Assembly: GCA_001940995.1 (NCBI GenBank)
Contig: MSHC01000023.1
Coordinates: 331-64,330 of the forward strand
Source of the DNA: Ruminococcus sp. Phil15
GTDB lineage: Bacteria > Bacillota > Clostridia > Oscillospirales > Ruminococcaceae
Direction of reading: 5' to 3'
Length of the DNA: 64,000 bases
Below the pieces are notes generated by a model. The model had not been told where the DNA came from, ran no database searches, and saw only the letters and a list, made by a program, of their open reading frames with translations. Positions within the stretch are counted from its first letter, which is position 1; each line of letters starts with the position of its first letter. This document shows positions 23,146 through 50,962 of this stretch, piece by piece. The position numbers were made by a program, and so were the translations under genes.

Positions 23146-23739
23146 TTATTTTGGAGGAAGAACCACAGGCTGAATCTGTCTGCCCTCCAGCGCCGACATT
23201 ATCGTCTTATCGGCAAGCGTGAAATCCGCAATCATCGAGTTGGGCTTTGCCCTGAAATCGTCCTGACCGTAAGGCACAAAATAGATGTTTCTGCAATTCT
23301 GCAAAAAGCCGATGTTCTTTGCGGAAGAGCCGAGCGCATCGTTTGTCGCAATCGCTAAAACGACAGGTCTGCCGTTTCGTATGTGCGACTTTACAGCCAT
23401 TGTAACAGGAGTGTCAGTCACTCCGCCTGCAAGCTTTGCAAGAGTGTTTCCTGTGCAGGGCATAACAACAAGCACGTCAAACAGCTTCTTAGGTCCGATA
23501 GGCTCTGCGTCCTCGATACGCAGAATTGCTTTTTTGCCGCAGATCTTCTCCAGCTTTGATAGGTTCTCCTCAGCCGTGCCGAAGCGTGAGGATATTGAAG
23601 ATGCGTTGAAGGACATTATCGGCGTAAGCTGACAGCCCAGGTCAGACAGCCTCTGGGCCTGCGCAAAGGAATTGGAGAATGTGCAGAATGAGCCGCACAT
23701 AGCGTAGCCGATTTTAAGTCCGATTGGCAGCTCGGTCAT
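23146..23739 (-). CDS. dpaB: Dipicolinate synthase subunit B
   Basis: A 197-aa flavoprotein-fold protein, subunit B of the enzyme making the spore-core compound dipicolinic acid (SpoVFB). Typical text includes LKIGYAMCGSFCTFSNSFAQAQRL, PCTGNTLAKLAGGVTDTPVTMAVKSHIRNGRPVVLAIATNDALG and IYFVPYGQDD. It looks complete. ATG 23739 follows AAGGGGGCG. The start overlaps, as ATGA, the stop of an orphan DpaA C-terminal fragment. The rest of dpaA lies 8.65 kb away on the same strand. Confidence 0.94.
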   Translation of the reverse strand: MTELPIGLKIGYAMCGSFCTFSNSFAQAQRLSDLGCQLTPIMSFNASSISSRFGTAEENLSKLEKICGKKAILRIEDAEPIGPKKLFDVLVVMPCTGNTLAKLAGGVTDTPVTMAVKSHIRNGRPVVLAIATNDALGSSAKNIGFLQNCRNIYFVPYGQDDFRAKPNSMIADFTLADKTIMSALEGRQIQPVVLPPK

Positions 23740-23822
23740 ATCTTTTCGCCCCCTTCTTTTATAATACCCAGCACCGTGTCGGCAATGATTTCGCCCGACG
23801 TTATTGGGGCGACCTTTCCCGG
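23736..23822 (-). pseudogene. dpaA: dpaA 3' fragment (last 27 codons) separated from its gene
   Basis: Too short for the ORF track. From the CCG codon at 23822 the minus strand reads P-GKVAPITSGEIIADTV then LGIIKEGGEKI and a TGA that overlaps the dpaB ATG. This is the conserved DpaA/SpoVFA C-terminus (LPG-VAP-TAG-IL pattern). The 5' part of the gene at 32386-33270 runs up to IWALSLP and then diverges. Joining the two parts at the shared CCG gives a 293-residue protein, the family's usual length. I call this a displaced exon-like fragment rather than decay, because the frame and the coupling with dpaB are intact. Confidence 0.9.
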
Positions 23823-23830
23823 AGGGGAGA
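23813..23830. other. Left attachment-like site of the dpaA-interrupting element
   Basis: CCTTTCCCGGAGGGGAGA matches CCTTTGGCGGAAGGGAGA at 32466-32483 in 15 of 18 positions, with an identical CGGA core. The left half belongs to the dpaA 3' fragment and the right half to the element. Confidence 0.8.
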
Positions 23831-24199
23831 AAATAATTTGCGAAAATATGAAAAGAAAATCTTAAACGTTTTCGGCACAAAATGCCTGTCCGAAAGGACT
23901 TTTCGTTATTATATACAAAAAAATTAAACACTATTTGTTCCGACAGTGTGATAAAGCGGTGAAAAATGGATAAATTTGGCACCGCTTACATATATATGGT
24001 AATAATATAACGTTTACATGGCAGAATTTGGATTATTTTTGTATCTTATGTTTAAATGTTTGCATTGCAAAACCAATTCAAATATTACATAGCGGTTACA
24101 AAGTGGGACTTCTTGTGAGCAAGATGCACAAAATGAGTTCAAACAATTTGTAAGAGTTAACATAATTGATTACAGAACTAAAAAAAACAGAGAAAAGTC
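23831..24199. other. Non-coding left end of the element
   Basis: About 370 bases without a convincing gene. It contains a small hairpin GTCC-GAAA-GGAC near 23890 and an AT-rich stretch with AACGTTTACAT at 24009-24019, which recurs at 39523-39534 upstream of another gene cluster. No recombinase-accessory gene is visible here. Confidence 0.6.
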
Positions 24200-24250
24200 T
24201 TGAATTTGAAGCGGGAATATTGTATATTTTTAGTACGGAAACGATTTAGC
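24200..24250 (+). promoter_or_regulatory. Promoter and LacI-type operator candidate of the sugar-transport regulator
   Basis: TTGAAT (24200-24205), a 17-base spacer and TATATT (24223-24228), then ACGGAAACGATTTAG, which contains the AAACG half-site usual for LacI-family operators. The position downstream of the -10 box suits autorepression. Confidence 0.55.
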
Positions 24251-24282
24251 TGAAATAGGTCTGCGAGGAGGCAAGAGCTTAG

Positions 24283-25281
24283 ATGGTATCGCTTAAGGAT
24301 ATTTCCGCAAGATGCGGGGTCTCTGTTGCGACAGTCAGCAAGGCTCTTAACGGTCACAAGGATGTAAGCGCAGCGACAAGAGAAAAGCTTCTCAGAGTAG
24401 CCAAGGAAATGGGATACTTCCCGAATTCACAGGCAAGGGCGCTTAAAACCAACCGTACATATAATCTCGGCGTGATGTTTCTCGATGCAGCCGACAGCGG
24501 CTTCACCCACGAGTTTTTTGCTAAGGTGCTTAACTCGTTTAAAACTGCGGCGGAAGCGTACGGCTACGATATCACGTTTATAAACAGGAACATCGGCGGC
24601 AGAATGATGACCACCTATGAGCACTGTAAGTACAGAAACGTTGACGGCATAATAATTGCCTGCACAGACTTTACCGACCCGGACGTTTACGAGCTTGTAA
24701 GCGGCGATATACCGGTAGTAACGATAGACCACAGGTTCGACGGCAGGACTGCTATCCTCTCGGATAACGGCGCAGGAATGCGAAGCCTCGTAGGCTACGT
24801 TCACGAAAAGGGTCATTCAAAAATCGGTTTTATAATGGGAAACAAATCCTCGGTTGCCGAGAAAAGACTTGAAGCTTTCAAAAACGAATGCGAAAAATTC
24901 GGCATAAGAATTGACGAAAGATACATTCTTCCGGGAGATTTCCATAATGCGGACCTGACTTATGAGAGAACCGTTCAGCTTATGAGGCTGAGCGATCCGC
25001 CGACCTGTATCTTTATGCCGGACGACTATTCGGCAATAGGCGGACTTAATGCCCTGAAGGATATGGGCTATAAGGTTCCCCAGGACGTATCGGTCGTAGG
25101 CTATGACGGAATTGGTCTTTCACAGATCATTTCACCGAAGCTTACAACCTACCGCCAGGACACTAACGAAATAGGCAGACTCGCTGCCAAGTCACTGGTG
25201 GAATTAATCGAGAACCCTCAAACCTTTAACGAGGTTTTATTAGTAGACGGTGAGCTTATAGAGGGGGAAACCGTCAGATAA
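24283..25281 (+). CDS. LacI-family transcriptional regulator
   Basis: A 332-aa regulator. Residues 1-55 form the LacI HTH (LKDISARCGVSVATVSKALNGHKDVSAATREKLLRVAKEMGY) with the hinge helix SQARALKTNRT. The rest is a periplasmic-binding-protein-like sugar sensor ending with SVVGYDGIGLSQIISPKLTTYRQD. GGAGG lies 11 bases upstream of ATG. It is followed 57 bases later by the sugar-binding lipoprotein gene and very likely controls that transporter. It lies inside the dpaA element. Confidence 0.93.
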   Translation: MVSLKDISARCGVSVATVSKALNGHKDVSAATREKLLRVAKEMGYFPNSQARALKTNRTYNLGVMFLDAADSGFTHEFFAKVLNSFKTAAEAYGYDITFINRNIGGRMMTTYEHCKYRNVDGIIIACTDFTDPDVYELVSGDIPVVTIDHRFDGRTAILSDNGAGMRSLVGYVHEKGHSKIGFIMGNKSSVAEKRLEAFKNECEKFGIRIDERYILPGDFHNADLTYERTVQLMRLSDPPTCIFMPDDYSAIGGLNALKDMGYKVPQDVSVVGYDGIGLSQIISPKLTTYRQDTNEIGRLAAKSLVELIENPQTFNEVLLVDGELIEGETVR

Positions 25282-25338
25282 ATTAAGGCATTAATAAACA
25301 ACTATACTAATGCACACAATTTAAGGAGGAAGATTTCA

Positions 25339-26751
25339 ATGAACAAACTTAAGAGAGTTCTCTCAGGAACACTCGCACTTGCTATGGCAGCTTCAATGCT
25401 CACAGCTTGCGGCGGCGATGATTCTTCATCTAAGGCAGCAGGCAACAGCGGCGACGCTAGCAACGGCGGCGGCGACACAAGTGACAAGACAGTCATCAAG
25501 GTTTACACCTTCACAGAAGAAACACAGGGTCAGATCGACAGATTCCTCGAAAAGAATCCTGATATGGCAGCAAAGTATGAATTCAAGGTAACACTTGAAG
25601 CTACGGCTGCTGACTATATCTCAAAGGTTTCTTCAGCTCTTGCCGGCGACGATGCTCCGGACCTTTTCCTTGCTGACGCTGACTATGCACAGCTTTTTGC
25701 AGGTCTTGAAGGTACAGCTACACTCGCTGAACTCGGCGTTGAGTTCGATGAGAGCGACTACTACAGCTACATGCTCGACTTCACAACAGTTGACGGCAAC
25801 AGAATGGCTATCTCCCACCAGGCAGCTCCTGGCGCAGTTTTTTACAGAACTGACTATGCTGAGCAGTACCTCGGAGTTAAGACTCCTGAAGAGATGCAGG
25901 CTAAGATGAGCAACTGGGAAGACTTCAAGGCTGTTGCTGACACACTCAAGGATAACGGAATCTACATGGTTTCCGGTATTGATGAACTCAAGAGATGCTT
26001 CATGGCTAACAGAGACACAGCATGGGTTGACGCTGACATGAACTACTGCCTCGACGAAGACCTCGTTAAGCAGTACCTCGAAGTTACTAAGTACCTTTGC
26101 GATGAAAAGGAAACACAGTATGCCGCTGCTACACAGTGGACAAACGACTGGTACACTGGTATGAAGGACGGCGTATTCTGCTACTTCGGATGCACATGGT
26201 ACCTCCACTACACAATCAAGCCAAACTGCCTTACAACACTTACAGGTGCTAAAGACGATAAGGGTAACCCAACAGTTGCTGACGCTGACTATGTAGAGGG
26301 CAACGGTTCTTACGGCAAGTGGGCCATGATCCAGGGACCAATGGCTTACTTCTGGGGCGGTACATGGTGGTACGGTTCCGATAAGGCTGCTGCAGATCCT
26401 GCTAAGAAGGAAGCTGTTTCCAGCATTATCGAATTCTACTGCTGCGACGCTGAAGCTATGACAGACTTCGCTAAGACATCCGGCGACTTCGTTTCCAAGA
26501 AGTCCGTTGTTGACGCTATCAAGTCTGACGAAGCATTCAAGAACCCATTCCTCGGCGGTCAGAACCACTACGAGTTCTTCGCTTCTGCTGCTGATAACGT
26601 AAACGCTAAGACAATGTCTAAGTTCGACGATACATTCAACACAGCTGTTAACGATGCAACTAACAAGTATGTTCTCGAAGGCGCTTCTATCGACGAGGCT
26701 ATCGCTTACATCGGCGAATATGCTAAGTCTAAGATCGAGGGTCTTAAGTAA
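25339..26751 (+). CDS. Sugar ABC transporter substrate-binding lipoprotein (family 1)
   Basis: A 470-aa extracellular binding protein. MNKLKRVLSGTLALAMAASMLTAC is a lipoprotein signal with lipobox LTAC, followed by a Ser/Gly/Asp linker. Family-1 features include SSALAGDDAPDLFLADADYA and the repeated aromatic stretch FGCTWYLHY...WGGTWWYGS, likely the sugar-stacking surface. Codon bias is very strong, suggesting high expression. AAGGAGGAAG precedes the start. It works with the two permeases downstream. No dedicated ATPase is in the element, so the MsmX-type ATPase at 34.8 kb is a candidate. The sugar is not identifiable. Confidence 0.92.
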   Translation: MNKLKRVLSGTLALAMAASMLTACGGDDSSSKAAGNSGDASNGGGDTSDKTVIKVYTFTEETQGQIDRFLEKNPDMAAKYEFKVTLEATAADYISKVSSALAGDDAPDLFLADADYAQLFAGLEGTATLAELGVEFDESDYYSYMLDFTTVDGNRMAISHQAAPGAVFYRTDYAEQYLGVKTPEEMQAKMSNWEDFKAVADTLKDNGIYMVSGIDELKRCFMANRDTAWVDADMNYCLDEDLVKQYLEVTKYLCDEKETQYAAATQWTNDWYTGMKDGVFCYFGCTWYLHYTIKPNCLTTLTGAKDDKGNPTVADADYVEGNGSYGKWAMIQGPMAYFWGGTWWYGSDKAAADPAKKEAVSSIIEFYCCDAEAMTDFAKTSGDFVSKKSVVDAIKSDEAFKNPFLGGQNHYEFFASAADNVNAKTMSKFDDTFNTAVNDATNKYVLEGASIDEAIAYIGEYAKSKIEGLK

Positions 26752-26794
26752 TTTAAATATCGTTTAAATTATTAACATCATAACTCGCAAACTC

Positions 26795-26827
26795 AGACGG
26801 GTGGGGAAGCCCACCCGTCTTTAGTTT
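26795..26827 (+). terminator. Attenuating hairpin between binding protein and permeases
   Basis: The perfect stem AGACGGGTGGG / CCCACCCGTCT is followed by a modest TTAGTTTT. Its position after the binding-protein gene would let that protein be made in excess over the permeases. Confidence 0.75.
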
Positions 26828-26859
26828 TCGATAATCAAAACAAAGTAGGAGTGTGAAAA

Positions 26860-27855
26860 ATGGCTTCAACAACTAAGAAACGTGCTAATCTTGAGAAGAA
26901 CTACTTTGGCTACATTTTTATTGCGCCGTTCTTTCTCACATATTTAATATTCCAGGTTGTGCCGCTGATTGACACCTTCCGTTACGCTCTTACAGATGCT
27001 AAGGCATGGTATATGGACCCTAACCAGGCTTATAACTTCGTAGGCCTCGACCAGTTCAAGTTCGTTGTAAACGACCGGTTCTTTAAGGACGCGTTCTTTA
27101 CAACGCCTGTAATGTGGATCATGGGCTTTATCCCTCAGCTCGGCATTGCTCTTTTGCTTGCCGCATGGTTTACAAATGAAAAAATCAGAGTTAAGGGACA
27201 GGGCTTCTTCAAGGTTGTATTCTATATGCCTAACATTATGACTGCGGCTACAATCGGCGTATTGTTCCTCGCATTCATCAGATCTAACGGATTTATCCAC
27301 AGCTTCTGTGTTGCAATCGGTTATATTGAAGACGCTCGTTATCCTATCACCAGCGAATGGTTCGGCAGAGGTATCGTAGCTTTCATTAACTTCTGGATGT
27401 GGTATGGTCAGACAATGATCGTTCTTACCGCAGGTATCCTCGGTATCAATCCGTCATTCTTCGAGGCTGCTTCTATCGACGGAGCATCCGGCTTCCAGAC
27501 ATTCGGAAGAATTACTTTGCCGCTTATCAGACCTATTATGACATACTCGCTTGTAACCTCCCTCATCGGCGGTTTCCAGATGTTCGATGTTCCGAATATG
27601 CTCGCTACAGGCGACTCTCATGCTGCTTTCGGTCCTAAGATTTCTACAATCGTTATGTACATAAAGTCTATCGCTTATAGCGGAACATTCTCTGTCGGCA
27701 GAGCTTGTGCCGCGTCTGTAATTCTTTTCGCCGTTACCGCCGTCGTTTCTCTCTTCCTATTCTGGATTATGAGAGATAAGGATGCGGCTAAGGCTGCTAA
27801 GGCTGCTAAGAAGCGTGCAAAGGAACAGGCAGCTTTGGAAGGAGGTAACATATAA
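26860..27855 (+). CDS. Sugar ABC transporter permease (MalF type)
   Basis: A 331-aa permease with about six membrane segments. The EAA loop reads FFEAASIDGASGFQTFGRITLPLIRP. The start follows AGGAGTGTGAAAA. The C-terminal tail KDAAKAAKAAKKRAKEQAA is Lys/Ala-rich and cytoplasmic. It is adjacent to the second permease with no spacer. Confidence 0.93.
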   Translation: MASTTKKRANLEKNYFGYIFIAPFFLTYLIFQVVPLIDTFRYALTDAKAWYMDPNQAYNFVGLDQFKFVVNDRFFKDAFFTTPVMWIMGFIPQLGIALLLAAWFTNEKIRVKGQGFFKVVFYMPNIMTAATIGVLFLAFIRSNGFIHSFCVAIGYIEDARYPITSEWFGRGIVAFINFWMWYGQTMIVLTAGILGINPSFFEAASIDGASGFQTFGRITLPLIRPIMTYSLVTSLIGGFQMFDVPNMLATGDSHAAFGPKISTIVMYIKSIAYSGTFSVGRACAASVILFAVTAVVSLFLFWIMRDKDAAKAAKAAKKRAKEQAALEGGNI

Positions 27856-28779
27856 ATGGCTAACTATTCAGGTACCGTTAAAACGGTAAAGGGCGGTTAC
27901 CATGCCCGTATACTTCTTGTCAAGACTCTTGTATACATCGTATGTATCTTCCTTACAATTCTCTCAATCGCTCCATTTGTAATAATGGTATTTAATGCTT
28001 CAAAGTCAAGATTTGAAATTCAGCAGGGCAACCTTGAATGGTGGCCGGAGCTTGAAAACAGGACTCTTGTGTCTTTGCTTCCATCTAAATCCTTTATTGC
28101 AAACGGTAAATATCTTCTTACCAGTAAGGCTCTTAACCTGCCGTTTGCAAGAGGCTTCTTGAACTCTTTCATTATCGCAGCAGGCGCAACGATCCTTTCT
28201 GTGTACTTCTCTGCACTTACCGCTTACGGTTTTGCAGTTTACAGATTCAAGCTTAATAAACTCCTCTACGGATTTATTATGATGATTCAGATGGTACCTA
28301 CACAGGTTACCGTTATCAGCTTCGTTGAAATGATGAACAAGTGGGGACTTACAAACAGCTACCTGCCGTTTATCCTCCCTTCGATCGCCGCACCTAGTAC
28401 GGTATTCTTCCTGAGGCAGTATATGCAGTCAGCCCTTTCGATTGAAATGGTTGAAGCAGGACGAATCGACGGTTCGAGCGAATTCGGAATTTTCAACAGA
28501 CTGGTACTTCCAATCTTAAAGCCGGGTATGGCAACAATGGCTATCTTCGCAATGGTTACTAACTGGAACAACTACCTCTTGCCGACACTCTTGATTGACA
28601 AGCTGGAAATGTCCACAATCCCAATGCTCGTTGGTAAGCTGAATGGTAATAAGTATTCGACCGAGTACGGCGCAGTTTACTGGGGACTTACTCTTACAGC
28701 ATTCCCTCTTATCGTATTCTACCTCGTTCTTTCTAAGTACATTATTGCCGGCGTTGCTCTCGGTGGCGTTAAGGAATAA
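27856..28779 (+). CDS. Sugar ABC transporter permease (MalG type)
   Basis: A 307-aa permease with about six membrane segments. The EAA loop is MVEAGRIDGSSEFGIFNRLVLPILKPG. The start directly follows the stop of the MalF-type gene, with GGAGG inside that gene. Together they form the membrane channel for the upstream binding protein. Confidence 0.93.
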   Translation: MANYSGTVKTVKGGYHARILLVKTLVYIVCIFLTILSIAPFVIMVFNASKSRFEIQQGNLEWWPELENRTLVSLLPSKSFIANGKYLLTSKALNLPFARGFLNSFIIAAGATILSVYFSALTAYGFAVYRFKLNKLLYGFIMMIQMVPTQVTVISFVEMMNKWGLTNSYLPFILPSIAAPSTVFFLRQYMQSALSIEMVEAGRIDGSSEFGIFNRLVLPILKPGMATMAIFAMVTNWNNYLLPTLLIDKLEMSTIPMLVGKLNGNKYSTEYGAVYWGLTLTAFPLIVFYLVLSKYIIAGVALGGVKE

Positions 28780-28812
28780 TTACAAGTGTATTAGATTTAT
28801 AGTTGTAATGTT

Positions 28813-28846
28813 AAAAGCCTCTGCTTTGTGCAGGGGCTTTTTTCTG
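28813..28846 (+). terminator. Terminator of the sugar importer operon
   Basis: AAAGCCTCTGC-TTTGT-GCAGGGGCTTT with six T. It separates the transporter from the oppositely oriented recombinase gene. Confidence 0.88.
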
Positions 28847-28865
28847 TCAGTCTGAAATGCGAAAC

Positions 28866-30293
28866 TTATGCCCATATAAGCTTTATGCCGCCGCTCCCGA
28901 TTTCTACCCTCGATATCAGAATTGTGCATAACCGCTTCTTCTGTGCAAAGGACAGCGGCGCAAAATCAAAATCCTGTTCAGTCTGAGTCTTGCTGTGCTT
29001 CGGCATAAGTAGCTCACGCTCTCTATTAAGCTCCCTTATCTTCTTTTCAATAACCACCGCTCCCGCCGAGTCGCTCTCGCACAACTGCTGTGCGAGAAGC
29101 TCTAACCGCCTGTCTGATTCTATCAGCTTTAGCATATCCTCTCCGCTCGTTTCCTCCTTCGCAAACAGCGATAGATATCTCATTCTCTCCACGATAAGAG
29201 GTGCGAGCATTTTTTCCAGCTCGTCGCAGGTAACTGTGTGCGTTTCGTCGCAGATGTGCATTTTCCGCCCACGGCAGCAAAGGTATTTTCTGTCTTTGTA
29301 CTTCTTTGTGTAAAGCGAGTATCCGCAGGCGCATTTCATAAGCCCCTGAAGCCAGCTTGTTTCGCCGCTGTGATTTGCACATACCGATTTCCCACGCCTT
29401 GCCTGCGCCGACAGCCACAGTCCGGAGTCTATAATGCCCGTGTGACTGCCGATGGTGATATGTTCGCCCTCAAAGGACGTGAATTTTGACGCCTTTCGCT
29501 CCTCAGGCGACGAATAGCTTATGCATCCATGCACGCCGTCAAACTCGGAAATATCGCTTGTTATTACAGCGCCGCAGTTTCGCAAGTACCTGTATACGGC
29601 TAGGTCTGCCTTCACATAAACAGGGTTGCGGAGCATCCTGCGAACAGAGGTAGCAGACAACGCCTTGCCTGCCCTCGATTTAACGCCCTGCCCGTAAAGC
29701 CACTTAGACAGACCTGTAAGGCTCATGCCGCCGTAAACGTACCGTTCATATATCTCCTTGACAATGCACGACTGTGTCCCCTCCGTAAGCCTGTGAGATG
29801 GGATTCCGTGTATCGTGCATGGCTCACGGATGTAACCGAACGGCGGTGCTCCGCCTAGATACAGTCCAAGCCTGCCCCTCGCATAGTAGTTGTCCGTGAC
29901 GCGCTGACGTATTGCGTTTCGCTCCATCTCCGCAAACATCATAAGGATATTGAGCATTACTGTGCTTGCGCCGTTTGACGTGTCAAAGCCCTCCGTTTTG
30001 GAAACAAGCGAAACGCCGTGTTTTTTTAGCTCGCCCGTGAGGTTTACAAAGTCGAGCAGCGAACGGCTTATTCTGTCAAGCCGGTAGATTATAATTCGTG
30101 AGATTTTCCCCTCACGCACTCTTTCCATAAGCTCGCTGAAGGACGGGCGGTCGAGATTTGCCCCCGTGTAGCCCTTGTCGGAAAATATGTAGGGGTCGTC
30201 TCCCGCAATCGCCCTGCAATCGTCAATCTGACTTTCTATGCTTATGCTGTCCCGTTTGTCCGCCGACTGTCTTGCGTAAATCGCTGACCTCAA
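28866..30293 (-). CDS. Large serine recombinase
   Basis: A 475-aa site-specific recombinase. The resolvase-type catalytic domain begins AIYARQSADKRDSISIESQ, with the nucleophilic Ser in ARQS. YRLDRISRSLLDFV and MLNILMMFAEMERNAIRQRV are conserved catalytic/helix motifs. A recombinase domain (GYIREP...LTGLSKWLYGQGV, RRMLRNPVYV) and a zinc ribbon CACGYSLYTKKYKDRKYLCC...C follow, then a coiled-coil region near 380-430. The start is TTG, nine bases after AAGGCGG. It lies within the interval that splits dpaA and is the obvious candidate for moving it. A CATATAATA motif upstream resembles mother-cell sigma -10 boxes. Confidence 0.93.
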   Translation of the reverse strand: MRSAIYARQSADKRDSISIESQIDDCRAIAGDDPYIFSDKGYTGANLDRPSFSELMERVREGKISRIIIYRLDRISRSLLDFVNLTGELKKHGVSLVSKTEGFDTSNGASTVMLNILMMFAEMERNAIRQRVTDNYYARGRLGLYLGGAPPFGYIREPCTIHGIPSHRLTEGTQSCIVKEIYERYVYGGMSLTGLSKWLYGQGVKSRAGKALSATSVRRMLRNPVYVKADLAVYRYLRNCGAVITSDISEFDGVHGCISYSSPEERKASKFTSFEGEHITIGSHTGIIDSGLWLSAQARRGKSVCANHSGETSWLQGLMKCACGYSLYTKKYKDRKYLCCRGRKMHICDETHTVTCDELEKMLAPLIVERMRYLSLFAKEETSGEDMLKLIESDRRLELLAQQLCESDSAGAVVIEKKIRELNRERELLMPKHSKTQTEQDFDFAPLSFAQKKRLCTILISRVEIGSGGIKLIWA

Positions 30294-30396
30294 TCGCTCT
30301 TACCGCCTTTCGGTAGGTTTCAAAGTAGTTTTCCGTCATCTCAAAAATTTCAAGTCTTGTGCCGTTTTCAGTTATCCTTTCATCAAGCTTTTTCAA
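30223..30396 (-). CDS. Possible 57-aa ORF overlapping the recombinase start
   Basis: Not in the ORF track. A TTG at 30396, seven bases after GGTGG, opens MKKLDERITENGTRLEIF and ends at a TGA inside the recombinase gene in another frame, overlapping it by about 70 bases. The first 35 codons, upstream of the recombinase, look codon-like and charged. It could couple translation to the recombinase or be a remnant of an older N-terminal gene. It is unrecognised and uncertain. Confidence 0.35.
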   Translation of the reverse strand: MKKLDERITENGTRLEIFEMTENYFETYRKAVRAIEVSDLRKTVGGQTGQHKHRKSD

Positions 30397-30420
30397 TTTA
30401 TTACCACCACTTCCACAGCA

Positions 30421-30450
30421 TATTATATGCGCAATTTCTTGACAATAGAG
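30421..30450 (-). promoter_or_regulatory. Sporulation-sigma-like promoter of the recombinase
   Basis: The minus strand reads CTCTATT, 14 bases, then CATATAAT. The -10 matches the sigma-E type (CATACAAT) in seven of eight bases and the sigma-K type (CATANNNTA) fully; the -35 keeps TATT. No TTGACA lies at the correct distance. The same CATATAATA 9-mer occurs upstream of dpaA. It overlaps the divergent LCP promoter. Confidence 0.5.
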
Positions 30451-30467
30451 GCAAAATAGTATACAAT
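30439..30467 (+). promoter_or_regulatory. Promoter of the LCP gene
   Basis: TTGACA (30439-30444), a 17-base spacer and TACAAT (30462-30467). A short dyad CCTGTA...TACAGG follows in the leader. Confidence 0.85.
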
Positions 30468-30534
30468 TATACTCGCCTGTACTGCGTTTTGCAATACAGG
30501 TGTGTATAAAGCAATAAAGAAAGGACGTGAGTAA

Positions 30535-31554
30535 ATGCTTCGCAGGGAGTATTACGATGAAAAAGACGACGATTTTGAAGAAGAAGAGATAAAAGAGCCG
30601 CCCGGACGCAGGAGAAGTATCTTGGGCAGAATTTTGCTGTTTATAATTTTCCTCGCAGTTGTCCTGTTTTGCCTTTACTCAGTCGCAGTCCTGAAATATA
30701 TCAGCGACGTCAACACAGTTGAAACGGGCGAGCGATATGAACACGGGGTCCAGACGATGCAGGACGACGATGTCAGAAACATTCTCCTTATCGGTACGGA
30801 TACCAGAAGCGTCAGCGATAAAGGCAGAGCTGACACAGTTATCCTGCTTACCATAAACAGCCGCACAAAAGAGCTGTATGTTACGTCGTTTATGCGTGAT
30901 TCATACGTCGATGTGCCGGGGTACGGTTTTACAAAGCTAAATGCCTCCTACCGATACGGCGGTGCTGAGCTTCTTATGGACACGCTTGAGGTCAATTTCA
31001 AGGTGGATATAGACGAGTATGTGTATGTAAATTTCGACTCGTTCTCAAAAATAGTTGACGCAGTCGGCGGCATCGAGATCACAGTTACAGATGCCGAAGC
31101 AGAGGGTATGAAGCCTCCTATGGCAGAGCAGAACGACCTTCTCGGCAATCCCCGTGGCACGGACTATCTCAGCGGCGGAGGAACGTATACGATGAACGGA
31201 AATCAGGCGCTTGCCTATGCCAGACTCCGCTATGTCGGAAACGCAGATTTTCAGCGTACCGAGAGGCAGCGTGAGGTAATAAGGAAAATCTTTGAGAAAG
31301 CAAAAGACCTTTCGATAGGGGAGCTTGACGGCTTTCTCTCTGCCTGTGCGTCAAGTGTCACAACCAATATGAGCAAAAAGGATATGTACCTGCTTTCGCT
31401 CCGCCTGCTGCCGCTTATGAAATATGACTTTAACGAGCTTAGGATTCCCTGCGACGACGGCTACAAGGGCAGTATGATAGACGGCCAGTCGGTTCTGGAA
31501 ATAGACTTTGATAAGAACATAGAGCTTATTAAGGATAAGGTCTATGGAGAATGA
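30535..31554 (+). CDS. LytR-CpsA-Psr (LCP) family protein
   Basis: A 339-aa type II membrane protein. A charged cytoplasmic start (RREYYDEKDDDFEEEE) is followed by one membrane helix (about 29-50, ILGRILLFIIFLAVVLFCLYSVAV) and an external LCP domain. LCP motifs include NILLIGTDTR, GRADTVILLTI, SFMRDSYVDVPG and ALAYARLRYVGNADFQRTERQREVI. LCP enzymes attach polyprenyl-linked glycopolymers to peptidoglycan. It lies inside the dpaA element, divergent from the recombinase and followed by an SGNH hydrolase gene. Confidence 0.93.
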   Translation: MLRREYYDEKDDDFEEEEIKEPPGRRRSILGRILLFIIFLAVVLFCLYSVAVLKYISDVNTVETGERYEHGVQTMQDDDVRNILLIGTDTRSVSDKGRADTVILLTINSRTKELYVTSFMRDSYVDVPGYGFTKLNASYRYGGAELLMDTLEVNFKVDIDEYVYVNFDSFSKIVDAVGGIEITVTDAEAEGMKPPMAEQNDLLGNPRGTDYLSGGGTYTMNGNQALAYARLRYVGNADFQRTERQREVIRKIFEKAKDLSIGELDGFLSACASSVTTNMSKKDMYLLSLRLLPLMKYDFNELRIPCDDGYKGSMIDGQSVLEIDFDKNIELIKDKVYGE

Positions 31555-31622
31555 CGGCGTTAGATCAATGACGGCAAGCAAAGAACTTAACGGATATTAT
31601 TATTATAACAAGGGGAATTGAA

Positions 31623-32252
31623 ATGAACGACAAGGAATTAAAAGTGCAGCGTTACCGTGAGGAAAACAAAACCGTCAAATACGGACAGACGGTTTTCGCA
31701 GGCTCATCACTTATGGAGATGTTTCCTATAAACAAGCTGTTAGTTGAACATAACGACAGTATGGTAATCTACAACCGTGGAATAGGCGGATTTATATCAC
31801 GGGAGCTTTTAGAGGCAGTTGATGTGTGCATTACGGATTTGAAGCCGTCAAAGGTGTTTATAAACATAGGCACAAACGACCTTAGCGACAGCCGTATACC
31901 AATTTCGGAGCTTATGGAAAACTACGATAGAATTATTACCGAGATAGAATCGAAGCTTCCGAAAGCGGTGGTTTACCTTATGGCATATTATCCGGTAAAT
32001 TATGATGCTGCTGCGGAGAATATGAAAGAATGTCTGAAAATTCGCAGCAACGAAAAGATACGCACCGCTAATGCGGAAGTAAAAAAGCTTGCCGAAAAGC
32101 ACGGACAGAGATATATCGACATAAATAAAAATCTTATGGACGGGCAGGGCAGACTTAAAGCCGAATACACCATAGAGGGTATGCACATAAAAGAGTGCGG
32201 CTATCGGGCAGTATATGATGATATAATGGCTTATGTAAAAGAGGAAATATAG
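31623..32252 (+). CDS. SGNH/GDSL hydrolase
   Basis: A 209-aa cytoplasmic-looking esterase. The nucleophile block is VFAGSSLMEMF, followed by YNRGIGGF, INIGTNDLSD and GMHIKECGY with the catalytic His. No signal peptide. Acyl-ester substrates such as lipids or acetylated sugars are typical, but the target is unknown. The start follows AAGGGGAATTGAA, 68 bases after the LCP gene; the two are likely co-transcribed. Confidence 0.87.
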   Translation: MNDKELKVQRYREENKTVKYGQTVFAGSSLMEMFPINKLLVEHNDSMVIYNRGIGGFISRELLEAVDVCITDLKPSKVFINIGTNDLSDSRIPISELMENYDRIITEIESKLPKAVVYLMAYYPVNYDAAAENMKECLKIRSNEKIRTANAEVKKLAEKHGQRYIDINKNLMDGQGRLKAEYTIEGMHIKECGYRAVYDDIMAYVKEEI

Positions 32253-32272
32253 CTTTTGTACAGGCTGTAATT

Positions 32273-32305
32273 TCGGCAGCTATTGTCATAAGCTGTCGAT
32301 TTTTC
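32273..32305 (+). terminator. Terminator of the LCP-SGNH unit
   Basis: The perfect stem TCGGCAGCT / AGCTGTCGA with a nine-base loop is followed by TTTTT. Confidence 0.82.
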
Positions 32306-32385
32306 CCGTAAGCATTTTCTCCTCACATCATATTGAAACTGCAATGCTCAAGAGCAGGCATACGGATTTAAAAGATAAGTTTTGA

Positions 32386-33270
32386 TTATGTATTATGCAC
32401 AGCCACACCCCAACAGGTGCGGCTGTTTATTTTTTTAGCGTTCGCCGCTTTTTCGCAATCCTTTTCCTTTGGCGGAAGGGAGAGCGCCCAAATTACCTTC
32501 AGATGCCTGTCGGAGGCAGACTTGAAATCAACGCCGCCCGGCTTTGATGCGAGGTCGATAATAAGCGTGTCAGAGCTTACCTTTTCAAGCTCTTTTTCTC
32601 CGAGAAGCACCGCAGGCACGGTGTTTATAACTATGTCAAAATCGCCGAGACTGTCGCAAAGATTTGCTATCGGTACAGGTGAGTAGCCAAGCGTCTTAGC
32701 ATATACAAGGTCACGCCCTTTTCTGGCACAGACGTGTACCTTTGCGCCAAGCGCCGAGAACACCCTTGCCGTCGCCTTTGCAACCCTGCCAAAGCCGAGA
32801 ATAAGTACCTTAGAGCCTGCAATAGTCCTCGCCGTGTTCTCCATGGCAATCGACAGCGCACCCTCGGCAGTCGGCACGCAGTTTTCGATTATAAGCTCCT
32901 CTCTGCCGAAATAGTCGGCGCAGAAAAGCTTGCGGCTCTTTATTCTTTCGCAAAGCTCCGGCGGCATCTTTCCGCCTACGATGATAGAGTCGTTTTTGCA
33001 GAAATTCATAAGCCTGTCGATGTATATAGGTTCGTTTGAAAAAGGTGCGTTTACCGTCTTTCCGTCGCTCGTCGCAGGCAGGGGAAGCACCACAACATCG
33101 GGCATAAATCCTATATCGGAAAAACCCGAAAGCTTCGTGCAGTCCTCGCATTTGAAGTCACTGCTGAGTCCGAGCGTGTAAACTCTGTCTGAAAACTTAC
33201 TTAAACGTGCGGCAAGAAAATTCTGTCTGAAATCTCCGCCGACAACGAGAAATGTCGTGTTTTTGTCCAT
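32386..33270 (-). CDS. dpaA: Dipicolinate synthase subunit A, interrupted (codons 1-266 plus 28 foreign codons)
   Basis: The NAD(P)-dependent subunit SpoVFA/DpaA of dipicolinate synthase. The N-terminal domain MDKNTTFLVVGGDFRQNFLAARL, the catalytic-region text CVPTAEGALSIAMENTARTI, the Rossmann motif VLILGFGRVAKATARVFSALGAKVHV and LIIDLASKPGGVDF are all present. Up to IWALSLP (codon 266, CCG at 32475-32473) it follows the family. The last 28 residues (PKEKDCEKAANAKKINSRTC onward) do not, and the final codons run through a terminator hairpin. The true C-terminus sits at 23736-23822. As annotated it is the left part of a gene interrupted by an element. AGGAGG is separated from ATG by a hairpin. 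Confidence 0.93.
   Translation of the reverse strand: MDKNTTFLVVGGDFRQNFLAARLSKFSDRVYTLGLSSDFKCEDCTKLSGFSDIGFMPDVVVLPLPATSDGKTVNAPFSNEPIYIDRLMNFCKNDSIIVGGKMPPELCERIKSRKLFCADYFGREELIIENCVPTAEGALSIAMENTARTIAGSKVLILGFGRVAKATARVFSALGAKVHVCARKGRDLVYAKTLGYSPVPIANLCDSLGDFDIVINTVPAVLLGEKELEKVSSDTLIIDLASKPGGVDFKSASDRHLKVIWALSLPPKEKDCEKAANAKKINSRTCWGVAVHNT
32400..32437 (+). terminator. Terminator hairpin inside the foreign tail of dpaA
   Basis: CAGCCACACC and GGTGCGGCTG form a stem with one mismatch, followed by TTTATTTTTTT on the plus strand. It lies within the element-derived last codons of the truncated dpaA and would block plus-strand readthrough toward dpaA. Confidence 0.7.
32466..32483. other. 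Right attachment-like site of the dpaA-interrupting element
   Basis: CCTTTGGCGGAAGGGAGA shares the CGGA core and 15 of 18 positions with the left site at 23813-23830. The left half is element DNA and the right half is dpaA. Confidence 0.8.
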
Positions 33271-33277
33271 ATCTCAA

Positions 33278-33305
33278 GCAACGCTTAAAGCGTTTGCCCT
33301 CCTTT
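33278..33305 (-). promoter_or_regulatory. Hairpin between Shine-Dalgarno and start codon of dpaA
   Basis: The minus strand reads AAAGGAGG, then GCAAACGCT-TTA-AGCGTTGC (8 bp with one bulged A), then seven bases, then ATG. It has the same layout as cimA. Confidence 0.6.
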
Positions 33306-33350
33306 CGTTATGTAAAAGCGGTGCGTATCAGCGATGCATCGCCCTTGATT

Positions 33351-33359
33351 TATTATATG
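33351..33359 (-). promoter_or_regulatory. Sigma-K-like -10 motif upstream of dpaA
   Basis: The minus strand reads CATATAATA, matching CATANNNTA, 82 bases upstream of the start. An AC dinucleotide lies 18 bases further up, one base more than the usual sigma-K spacing. No sigma-A -35 box is at the right place. Confidence 0.45.
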
Positions 33360-33394
33360 AAAGAAGCCCATAAGCGGTGAGAATACGGACAACA

Positions 33395-48487: not shown

Positions 48488-50962
48488 ATGCAGAATAATA
48501 AATGGAAAAAGATGCTCGTATTCGCACTCGTTCTTACAATGCTCGTTCCGTCCGGCTCAATCGTGGCAAGCTCTACCGATGAAGAAGTAGATACAACAGC
48601 CACAGGCGATACAGAAGGAACAGAAAACGAAGACGGCGAAGACGAGGAGGACGGCACGGAAGACGCCCTGCCTCCGAAGAAAACAGACGAACAGGCATTA
48701 GAGTTCTGTCAGAATGTTGCAGAAAACGACAAATATATCCTCTATTACGACTCGGGTGAGCGTGAAAAGCCTGAAGAAGATGAGGAGGATACCGAGGAAG
48801 GCGCAGAGGACTCCGAAAAGAAGAAAGAAGAACCTGAGGATATCGCAGTCGCAAGATTCGGACTCTATGTCAAGGAAACAGGCAAAGTCTGGTGGTCAAA
48901 CCCCGTTAACGCATTCGCTGATGATACGATCATCGACCCTATCAAGGGCAGAACAATGCGTGAAACGCAGAGATATCAGGTAGCCTCAAACATCACTATC
49001 ACATACGCCGACCTCAGACAGGAAAAGCGTACAACAAAAACTCTCTACTCAGCAGACGACGCAACTGAAAAGTGGAAGGAAATAAACGGCGGCATTGAAG
49101 TCACATATACCTTCAGAAGCCCCGGAATTACAATCCCCGTTCAGTATACACTCGAAGATGACGGCTTAAGAGTTTCCGTCGACACAACAAAAATCAAGGA
49201 GAAGAACACCTCGCAGGAGAACGGCAAGGTTATTACATCAGTAAGCCTCACGCCTCAGTTCGGCGCTTCTTCTGCAACAGACCTTGACGGCAACGCAATA
49301 GACGGCTATATGATAGTCCCGGACGGCTCGGGCGCTGTTATAAACTATAACAACGGTAAGTCCGATTATAACACATACTCCCAGAAGCTCTACGGCAGAG
49401 ATTATACGGCAGTTCCTCTTAACGCTCCTAAGGTAACCGAGCAGGCTTATATGCCGGTTGTCGCAACAGTAAGCGGAGACAGCGGACTCGTGTGCATCGC
49501 TGAGGAGGGCAACGCAAACGCAACAGTTATCGCAGAGGTGTCAGGTCAGAATAATCAGGCGTTCAATTCCTGCGCATTCGACTTCGAGCTTCGCAGCTCC
49601 GATACATATTATATGAGCGGCGACTCCGGCAATAAACTCGTCGTTTACGAAAAGGGCAGCATCGAAACGCCAACCATCGCCGTTAAGTATACGCCTATCT
49701 CCGACAGCGAGGGCGTAAACTACGCAGACGTCGCAGAGGTGTTCAGAAATTACCTAAAGGCAGGCGGACTTGAAGCCTCAGTATCCGAGAACCAGTACAA
49801 CTTCTACCTCGACCTGTACGGCGGCGTAATGAAGCAGCAGTCAATCCTCGGACTCCCGTTCGACCTCAAGACTTCTATGACCTCTTTCGAGGAAGCAAAG
49901 GAAATACTTGAGAAATTCGAATCAAACGGCGTATCCGATATGGTTGTAGCCTATAACGACTGGACAAACAAGCTCATAAAGGAAAATATCTCAACAACCT
50001 TTAAGCCGTCAGGCACGCTCGGCGGCAACGGCGATTTCAAGGACCTTCAGTCTTATATGAACGGCATCAACGCAGAGCTTTATCCTACAATGGATAACCT
50101 CACAATGAACAGTTCTACATGGGGCTACTGGACTCTTACAAATACGGCGATCAGAGTTTCTAACGCTTATTCAAGACAGTCAAGCTACAGCATCGCATTC
50201 GGCGTTGAGGACAAGGGCGTTTCTCCCGCACTCCTTACTCCAAACGCATACGGCAAGGTGTTTGACGAAATCGTCGAAAGCTTTACCGATAAGGGTCAGT
50301 CAAGCGTTTCGTTCGGCAACTACTCAACAGCGCTCGTTTCCGACTTCCTCAAGAAAGACAAGTCGGTAAGATATAAGTCAATGAACACGATCATCGACGG
50401 CTACGAGCAGGCTACAAACGGCGGCCTTGACAAGATCCTCTGCGACGGAGCAAACGACTATGTAATCAAGTATGCTTCGCATATCACAGACGTTCCGCTC
50501 TATTCCAGCGGATATAACCTTACAGACTACGATATCCCGTTCTACCAGATGGTAGTCCACGGATACGTTCCTTACTCCTCAGAGTCTATCAATAAGACGT
50601 CTGACGTGCAGGAAGCATATTTGCTCTCTATCGCATACGGAGCAGGACTCCACTACGATATGATTTATGAGAAGGCATCTGAGGTTGCCGATACAGATTA
50701 CAACGACCTCTATTACGCTTACTATGGCGCATGGGTCGACGTTGCTTCCGAGCAGAACGCAGTTGCAAAGAGCGTCCTCGCTCCTGTAAGCAATATGACA
50801 ATCTCAAACTTCGAGCGCAGCGGAAGAGTTCTTACAACAACATACAGCGCAGACGGCAAGTCGGATGTTGTGGTGGTTGTAGACCTCGACAAGGCAACGG
50901 TTACAGTCGACGGCGTCGCCGTTGACCTTGGCAATACTATAATGACAGGAGGTATGGCTTAA
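48488..50962 (+). CDS. DUF5696-like secreted protein
   Basis: An 824-aa exported protein. The signal MQNNKWKKMLVFALVLTMLVPSGSIVAS is followed by a very acidic stretch (about 30-120, GTENEDGEDEEDGTED). The central part is beta-rich (FGLYVKETGKVWWSNP, LTPQFGASSATDLDGNAIDG, MIVPDGSGAVI). A probable TIM-barrel-like region starts near 470 (VSDMVVAYNDWTNKLIK, LQSYMNGINAELYPTMDN). A small C-terminal beta domain ends in DVVVVVDLDKATVTVDG. The domain order fits DUF5696. A glycan-processing or glycan-binding role is inferred from its permease neighbours. Confidence 0.75.
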   Translation: MQNNKWKKMLVFALVLTMLVPSGSIVASSTDEEVDTTATGDTEGTENEDGEDEEDGTEDALPPKKTDEQALEFCQNVAENDKYILYYDSGEREKPEEDEEDTEEGAEDSEKKKEEPEDIAVARFGLYVKETGKVWWSNPVNAFADDTIIDPIKGRTMRETQRYQVASNITITYADLRQEKRTTKTLYSADDATEKWKEINGGIEVTYTFRSPGITIPVQYTLEDDGLRVSVDTTKIKEKNTSQENGKVITSVSLTPQFGASSATDLDGNAIDGYMIVPDGSGAVINYNNGKSDYNTYSQKLYGRDYTAVPLNAPKVTEQAYMPVVATVSGDSGLVCIAEEGNANATVIAEVSGQNNQAFNSCAFDFELRSSDTYYMSGDSGNKLVVYEKGSIETPTIAVKYTPISDSEGVNYADVAEVFRNYLKAGGLEASVSENQYNFYLDLYGGVMKQQSILGLPFDLKTSMTSFEEAKEILEKFESNGVSDMVVAYNDWTNKLIKENISTTFKPSGTLGGNGDFKDLQSYMNGINAELYPTMDNLTMNSSTWGYWTLTNTAIRVSNAYSRQSSYSIAFGVEDKGVSPALLTPNAYGKVFDEIVESFTDKGQSSVSFGNYSTALVSDFLKKDKSVRYKSMNTIIDGYEQATNGGLDKILCDGANDYVIKYASHITDVPLYSSGYNLTDYDIPFYQMVVHGYVPYSSESINKTSDVQEAYLLSIAYGAGLHYDMIYEKASEVADTDYNDLYYAYYGAWVDVASEQNAVAKSVLAPVSNMTISNFERSGRVLTTTYSADGKSDVVVVVDLDKATVTVDGVAVDLGNTIMTGGMA

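Follow-up and report, generated by a model that had tools for sequence, protein, structure and literature searches.

Why should a gene for a serine recombinase lie between dpaA and dpaB, the two genes of dipicolinate synthase, and why should the same 9-mer stand upstream of both the recombinase and dpaA? This arrangement occurs in a 64,000-nucleotide stretch of contig MSHC01000023.1 from Ruminococcus sp. Phil15 (hereafter the window, meaning the whole stretch at its full length). Our answer is that an element of 8653 bp divides dpaA in two and is most likely a developmental excision system of the skin type, named after the element that splits sigK in Bacillus subtilis. Judging from the sequence, we put a probability of roughly 0.78 on the reading that this recombination unit would be cut out under sigma-E, that dpaA would be rejoined in frame, and that dpaAB would then be transcribed by sigma-K. 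The features on which the argument draws are collected in Table 1.

Table 1. Features of the dpaA locus, in positions of the window, and elements at the same site in more distant genomes.
Feature	Position	Strand	Remarks
dpaA-intervening element	23822..32474		8653 bp; insertion codon common to G002, G003 and more distant genomes
dpaA 5' part	32474..33270	-	DpaA residue 1 to Pro of WALSLP; frame continues in element DNA to 32386
dpaA 3' part	23736..23822	-	PGKVAPITSGEIIADTVLGIIKEGGEKI; TGA stop overlaps dpaB ATG
dpaB	23146..23739	-	TIGR02852, 241.9 bits, cut-off 229
attL, dpaA/element junction	32444..32505	-	crossover dinucleotide CC 32475-32474
attR, element/dpaA junction	23791..23852	-	crossover dinucleotide CC 23822-23821
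Large serine recombinase	28866..30293	-	475 aa, TTG start; Resolvase and Recombinase domains, weak zinc ribbon; PHROG 95 integrase
57-aa open reading frame	30223..30396	-	TTG start; overlaps recombinase 5' end, +1 frame; candidate directionality factor
Sigma-E-type promoter of small reading frame and recombinase	30421..30448	-	CTATT 30448-30444, 14 nt, CATATAAT 30429-30422
Divergent sigma-A promoter of LCP gene	30439..30467	+	TTGACA-N17-TACAAT; overlaps recombinase -35
Sigma-K-type dpaA promoter	33351..33378	-	AC 33378-33377, 17 nt, CATATAAT 33359-33352
LacI-type regulator, sugar-binding protein, two permeases	24283..28779	+	inside element
LytR-CpsA-Psr (LCP) family gene	30535..31554	+	PF03816; inside element
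SGNH/GDSL hydrolase	31623..32252	+	inside element
Distant dpaA elements			G206 ~8.8 kb; G255 13.9 kb; G256 3.25 kb; G257 11.95 kb
Distant dpaA elements			G217 ~5.0 kb; G258 32.8 kb; G259 reaches contig end

The initial annotation had taken dpaA to be whole at 32386-33270, which does not hold. Matches to DpaA_N and NF006162 stop at residue 266 of that frame and the residues beyond are foreign, its last ~29 codons being element sequence, and the true 3' end lies at 23822-23736, where the last 28 dpaA codons (PGKVAPITSGEII...) are found 8.65 kb away and directly before dpaB. The junction falls at WALSLP|P, and in seven relatives from the genus the corresponding WALSLPGKTAP... (WALSLPGKTAPVTSG...) runs on uninterrupted, with dpaB immediately after. 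As expected of a skin-type element, both parts of dpaA are kept in frame across the junction, and the rejoined DpaA scores 281.4 bits against NF006162 (curated cut-off 261), compared with 246.6 bits, below the cut-off, for the truncated open reading frame (ORF). In automated annotation the two parts will pass for a truncated gene. When the window's 32386-33270 is compared with L040, L041, L042 and L043, the 5' part of its DpaA is 55-60% identical to that of uninterrupted relatives and 51% identical to that of the two other carriers of an element, and unlike it the neighbouring genes are closer to those two carriers.

Interruption of dpaA at this codon extends to other genomes. Two relatives in the genus (G002 and G003, metagenome-assembled genomes (MAGs) from goat and water deer caecum) carry elements of 7.8 and 7.9 kb there, and the closest recombinases outside the genus, which are 36-44% identical, also lie at dpaA, in seven genomes, giving nine other genomes besides the window in which the gene is interrupted at the same place. 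One of these, G258, has only a short piece of dpaA at the 5' junction, beside another recombinase gene that lies just upstream of this junction, with a further dpaA on another contig, so its case is more complex. The ~33 kb element at its dpaA site (G258:C17, L205-L206) encodes a phage terminase large subunit, BrxL, a PAPS-reductase-domain protein and a DNA methylase, a cargo resembling BREX defence. At the other extreme is the minimal 3.25 kb element of G256 (G256:C36, L202:758-4089), whose other sizeable gene encodes a Na/Ca exchanger (PF01699); it is curious to find a calcium transporter inside the gene for a calcium-binding spore chemical.

A gene in two pieces could simply be dead, an old insertion having left two fragments in a lineage that no longer makes dipicolinate (DPA) by this route. 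Some Clostridia make DPA without DpaAB, and the window genome shows the split gene only. This account nevertheless seems very improbable. The detached 3' part lacks its own start codon, and its protein sequence has been conserved through many synonymous changes (pS 0.43-0.65 and pN 0.16-0.21 among the three carriers of the genus, indicating purifying selection), dpaB is intact, and the promoter, the frame, the junction codon and the symmetry of the attachment (att) sites are kept in three species as well as in the distant elements.

The att sites were predicted on the premise that crossover takes place at the CC of the Pro codon, which predicts that attP and attB, once rebuilt, form dyads with that CC in the middle. 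The attP dyad is centred on this CC in all seven elements for which both ends could be placed (the best of 15 centres tried), and the attB dyad in five of the seven; since the three elements of the genus share ancestry, these seven trials are not independent. In G255, for example, the attP arms read TTTTCAACTTAT / ATAAGTTGAAAA. The predicted attP junction is TTTTCTCCC[CT]TCCGCCAAAGG and the predicted attB junction, for the window's species, is CTCTCCCTTCCGGGAAAGG; when the core pattern is sought in the window with up to 3 mismatches, it is found at the two junctions only. A short core with inverted repeats centred on the crossover is the form that att sites of skin-type elements take, and the attP of serine integrases consists of inverted repeats around a central dinucleotide (PMC5595907).

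The enzyme that would act on these sites is encoded within the element, as a skin-type system demands. It has the features of a large serine recombinase: PF00239 and PF07508 score over their cut-offs, with PF13408 just under, and the catalytic Ser in YARQS is invariant in the recombinase alignment. In a tree of 64 recombinases the 10 associated with dpaA lie together on one side of a branch (support 100/99, and present in 200 of 200 bootstrap trees) with no other member among the 64 rows, although the recombinases of G206 and G217 sit on long branches. Overlapping the start of the recombinase is a small ORF of 56-57 aa which begins with TTG in all three genus carriers and shows pN below pS; G255, G256 and G257 have an ORF of 57-77 aa just upstream of theirs. 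The skin element of B. subtilis has a similar layout: its directionality factor Skr, of 64 aa, is encoded in the +1 frame relative to spoIVCA, with 101 nt of overlap (PMC6957869). The 57-aa ORF of the window is a candidate recombination directionality factor, a role to which its layout points.

The 9-mer CATATAATA is present on the minus strand upstream of the recombinase and of dpaA, at 30421-30429 and 33351-33359, exactly as first reported. A third copy, at 49607-49615 (minus), lies within plus-strand coding sequence and is taken as chance. By chance the window should contain 0.36 copies; the three present, a number reached in 2 of 100 shuffles, are only mildly unusual, and copy number by itself was set aside as too weak. 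The weight of the 9-mer comes from its position and conservation. As the 9-mer includes TATAAT, it could belong to any -10 box, and for this reason we turned to comparison across genomes. The suspicion that the 9-mers are chance matches or ordinary sigma-A -10 boxes with no bearing on sporulation can appeal to these counts and to the intragenic copy, but a sigma-70 scan lists no promoter using either TATAAT box, and AC-N17-CATATAAT precedes dpaA in every one of the ten genus genomes, which largely refutes the suspicion for dpaA. Taken as a whole, we give it very little credence.

Shuffled sequences would lead one to expect 0.01 of those ten occurrences. Outside the genus, AC-N17-CATAnn(n)T is found upstream of dpaA in 12 of 15 genomes against 0.56 expected, so that AC-17-CATA stands ahead of dpaA in 22 of 25 genomes altogether. 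The AC noted earlier at 18 bases is present, with exactly 17 bases between it and CATATAAT, and AC-N17-CATATAATA (33378-33351) agrees with the form of a sigma-K promoter, in which a -10 resembling CATAnnnTA has AC ~16-17 nt upstream. The window's 2.08 Mb genome holds two matches to AC-N17-CATATAAT, the dpaA site included, compared with 8 for the reversed control pattern; the second match (C21:16514) has no clear downstream gene and is likely chance. In C. difficile a sigma-K promoter has been mapped at dpaAB, and an AC with CATATAAT is recorded as the sigma-K promoter P2 of sigK (PMC3789822). Because of the conservation across genomes and this precedent, the proposal of a sigma-K promoter upstream of dpaA is strongly supported at the sequence level. 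A further calibrator for sigma-K, yabG, was not found in the genus. The window genome encodes intact sigE and sigK, and a SigG gene is also present. An interruption of sigK, considered given the type of recombinase, was rejected, as the gene (L001:1486-2247) is whole; ATA-N17-CATA lies close upstream of its Shine-Dalgarno sequence and ATG.

The assignment of the recombinase promoter is less firm. The TATT box 14 bases before the 9-mer was correctly noticed, as CTATT-N14-CATATAAT, and it is kept in both carrier relatives (ATATT-N14-CATATAAT in G002, CTATT-N14-CATATATT in G003). Window and relatives share [A/C]TATTGTCAA...GCATATA at constant spacing, which amounts to [A/C]TA-N16-CATA. Set against the sigma-E form of ATA, 16 nt and a CATA-type -10 (PMC3789822), the window gives CTA-N16-CATATAAT, G003 CTA-N16-CATATATT and G002 ATA-N16-CATATAAT, in a position overlapping a sigma-A -35. 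The mapped sigma-E promoter of spoIIID in C. difficile is ATA-N16-CATATATA (PMC3789822), and in the genomes read from the window's genus spoIIIAA has ATA-N16-CATA upstream, with the same spacing as at the recombinase. In three of three carriers the putative sigma-E -10 closely precedes the conserved TTG-started small ORF, whose Shine-Dalgarno sequence is clear in G002 and G003 and weaker in the window. Sigma-E dependence of the recombinase, the earlier suggestion, is thus supported but not secure: the [A/C]TA-N16-CATATA spacing recurs in all three carriers, and what falls short is the -35 and its overlap with the divergent promoter.

Several observations weigh against the reading as a whole or against parts of it. 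The recombinase -35 is imperfect, with CTA rather than ATA, in two of three carriers. The TTGTCAA stretch doubles as -35 box for the LCP gene's divergent promoter (TTGACA-N17-TATAAT in G002 and G003), and part of the conservation at the recombinase promoter consequently has another cause. No sigma-E pattern is evident ahead of the more distant recombinases, and the upstream regions of spoIID gave no clean sigma-E calibration, their alignment being unclear. The candidate directionality factor matches no family in the family searches, and profile comparison of the small ORF of the genus with the small ORFs of the more distant elements was not significant. Lastly, the window genome is a draft (88.8% complete), and both carrier relatives are draft MAGs. 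As a calibrator for sigma-E we dropped the spoIVA upstream region, where an upstream gene is in the way.

These doubts make room for a variant in which the excision system is the same and the recombinase is made constantly from a sigma-A promoter, the timing coming from a separate mother-cell factor. Such a promoter can be read on the minus strand at 30445-30417 as TTGTCA-N17-TATGCT, which scores 9 of 12, and in G002 as TTGTCA-N17-TATACT; in C. difficile a sigma-A promoter drives the recombinase gene CD1231 (PMC5025042). In G003, however, no -10 can be read at this place (TTTAGC), while all three carriers retain CATATA with the sigma-E spacing, and the small ORF, which would be the timing factor, shares the recombinase's upstream region and overlaps the recombinase. 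We regard the sigma-A reading as the weaker one and this variant as rather unlikely.

What the element encloses bears on whether it is tied to sporulation or merely mobile. In the uninterrupted genomes G001 (L048) and G008 (L042), which have dpaA whole at this codon, an LCP gene and a permease lie downstream of dpaB, joined in G001 by the second permease and the LacI gene; the other non-carriers gave no LacI match at E 1e-40. The G206 element encloses a similar gene set. Since genes of the element are found beside dpaB in non-carriers, the element encloses a host neighbourhood and not phage cargo, and for the window's genus the idea of a plain phage remnant was rejected on these grounds. Neither of the other two genus carriers was found to have the SGNH/GDSL hydrolase within its element. 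It might still be held that the element is a mobile island leaving at random so as to pass between genomes, its link with sporulation accidental, and the phage terminase and BREX-like genes of the 33 kb element in G258 do imply that the clade includes likely mobile elements. This seems improbable for the window, given that the enclosed genes of its genus and of G206 (LCP, sugar importer, LacI) are host-like and that the viral contigs searched yielded no excised or phage form and no relative.

What the sequence itself shows is a split gene, a common insertion codon, symmetric att sites, one recombinase clade, a composite that reads in frame and a conserved promoter ahead of dpaA; excision, its timing, the assignment to sigma-E and the part played by the small ORF we infer, in the following course. 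Vegetative cells and the spore chromosome would retain the element, and dpaA would be broken there. In the mother cell, sigma-E would direct transcription from the 9-mer at 30421-30429 through the 57-aa ORF and the overlapping recombinase, and the two products would recombine attL with attR at the central CC, so that the element leaves as a circle and dpaA is restored in frame and rejoined to dpaB. Sigma-K could then transcribe the restored dpaAB from AC-N17-CATATAATA (33351-33378), for late dipicolinate synthesis. With dpaA split by an element that bears the recombinase, the recombinase would need to act before whole dpaA could be expressed, and the order first suggested, a sigma-E recombinase followed by a sigma-K dpaA, fits the split gene, its sigma-E half being the less secure.

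We lean slightly toward a broader view in which the Pro codon of WALSLPG in dpaA is a long-standing docking site for one serine recombinase clade in gut Clostridia. The window's unit would be a domesticated form, its host genes (sugar importer, LacI, LCP) being cut from the mother-cell chromosome at each sporulation, with sigma-E driving this excision and sigma-K transcribing the restored dpaA. The clade, with every sampled member at one dpaA codon and elements from 3 kb to 33 kb, offers a series running from what is likely a mobile island up to a unit with host genes inside it. A DNA rearrangement would thereby become part of how uncultured gut bacteria control the heat resistance that dipicolinate gives to spores. 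The att sites, the recombinase, the candidate for a directionality factor and both promoters are now available for testing in laboratory hosts.

Recombinases of a neighbouring clade adjoin a split pdaB, a sporulation polysaccharide deacetylase gene (TIGR02764; L096:9456-11440, L099:9968-12231, L102:9893-11773, L103:9629-13651), with 3' parts starting from profile position 122-128 and one 5' part reaching ~154, which suggests that pdaB may be a second sporulation gene whose interruption has gone unreported. Among spore formers, developmental DNA excision has been described for a handful of genes, and dpaA would add another. Interruptions have been reported for sigK, spoVFB (dpaB), spoVR, spsM, gerE and yabG (PMC4191935, PMC5595907, PMC10747680, PMC6957869, PMC5025042); we found no report of one in dpaA/spoVFA or pdaB in the open-licence literature, which is not proof of novelty.

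Among known systems, the B. subtilis skin element in sigK (SpoIVCA/Skr) is close in arrangement, which is the basis of the likeness: a mother-cell gene is divided by an element which carries a serine recombinase, a small ORF overlaps the recombinase start in the +1 frame (57 aa and ~70 nt here, compared with the figures for Skr given above), and the sigma-E control reported for that unit has its counterpart in the sigma-E-type promoter proposed here. It differs in that the host gene is dpaA rather than sigK and the enclosed genes are host-like rather than phage remnants. The vfbin element of B. weihenstephanensis KBAB4 interrupts spoVFB (dpaB) of the same dipicolinate synthase operon, and a sporulation-specific rearrangement is reported there, as cited in PMC4191935 and PMC10747680; vfbin, found in a Bacillus, cuts the gene for the B subunit and has phage-related genes, whereas our element lies in the A subunit gene in Oscillospiraceae. 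Like gin in gerE of B. cereus (PMC5595907), the element is without phage structural genes, has a serine recombinase with a small factor (here a candidate), and has an att inverted repeat around the crossover; gin, however, is 28.6 kb long, has three recombinases and sits in gerE. With skin-Cd of C. difficile (CD1231/CD1234, PMC5025042) it shares the combination of a serine recombinase and a small protein, which is a candidate directionality factor here and a directionality factor under sigma-E control there, but skin-Cd places its recombinase under sigma-A and encodes the factor in a separate gene, while here a single sigma-E-type promoter seems to serve both. Finally, the C. difficile dpaAB operon (PMC3789822) has a sigma-K promoter, and in that species AC and CATATAAT are on record as elements of sigma-K promoters; the difference is that here the message would be broken unless the element is out.

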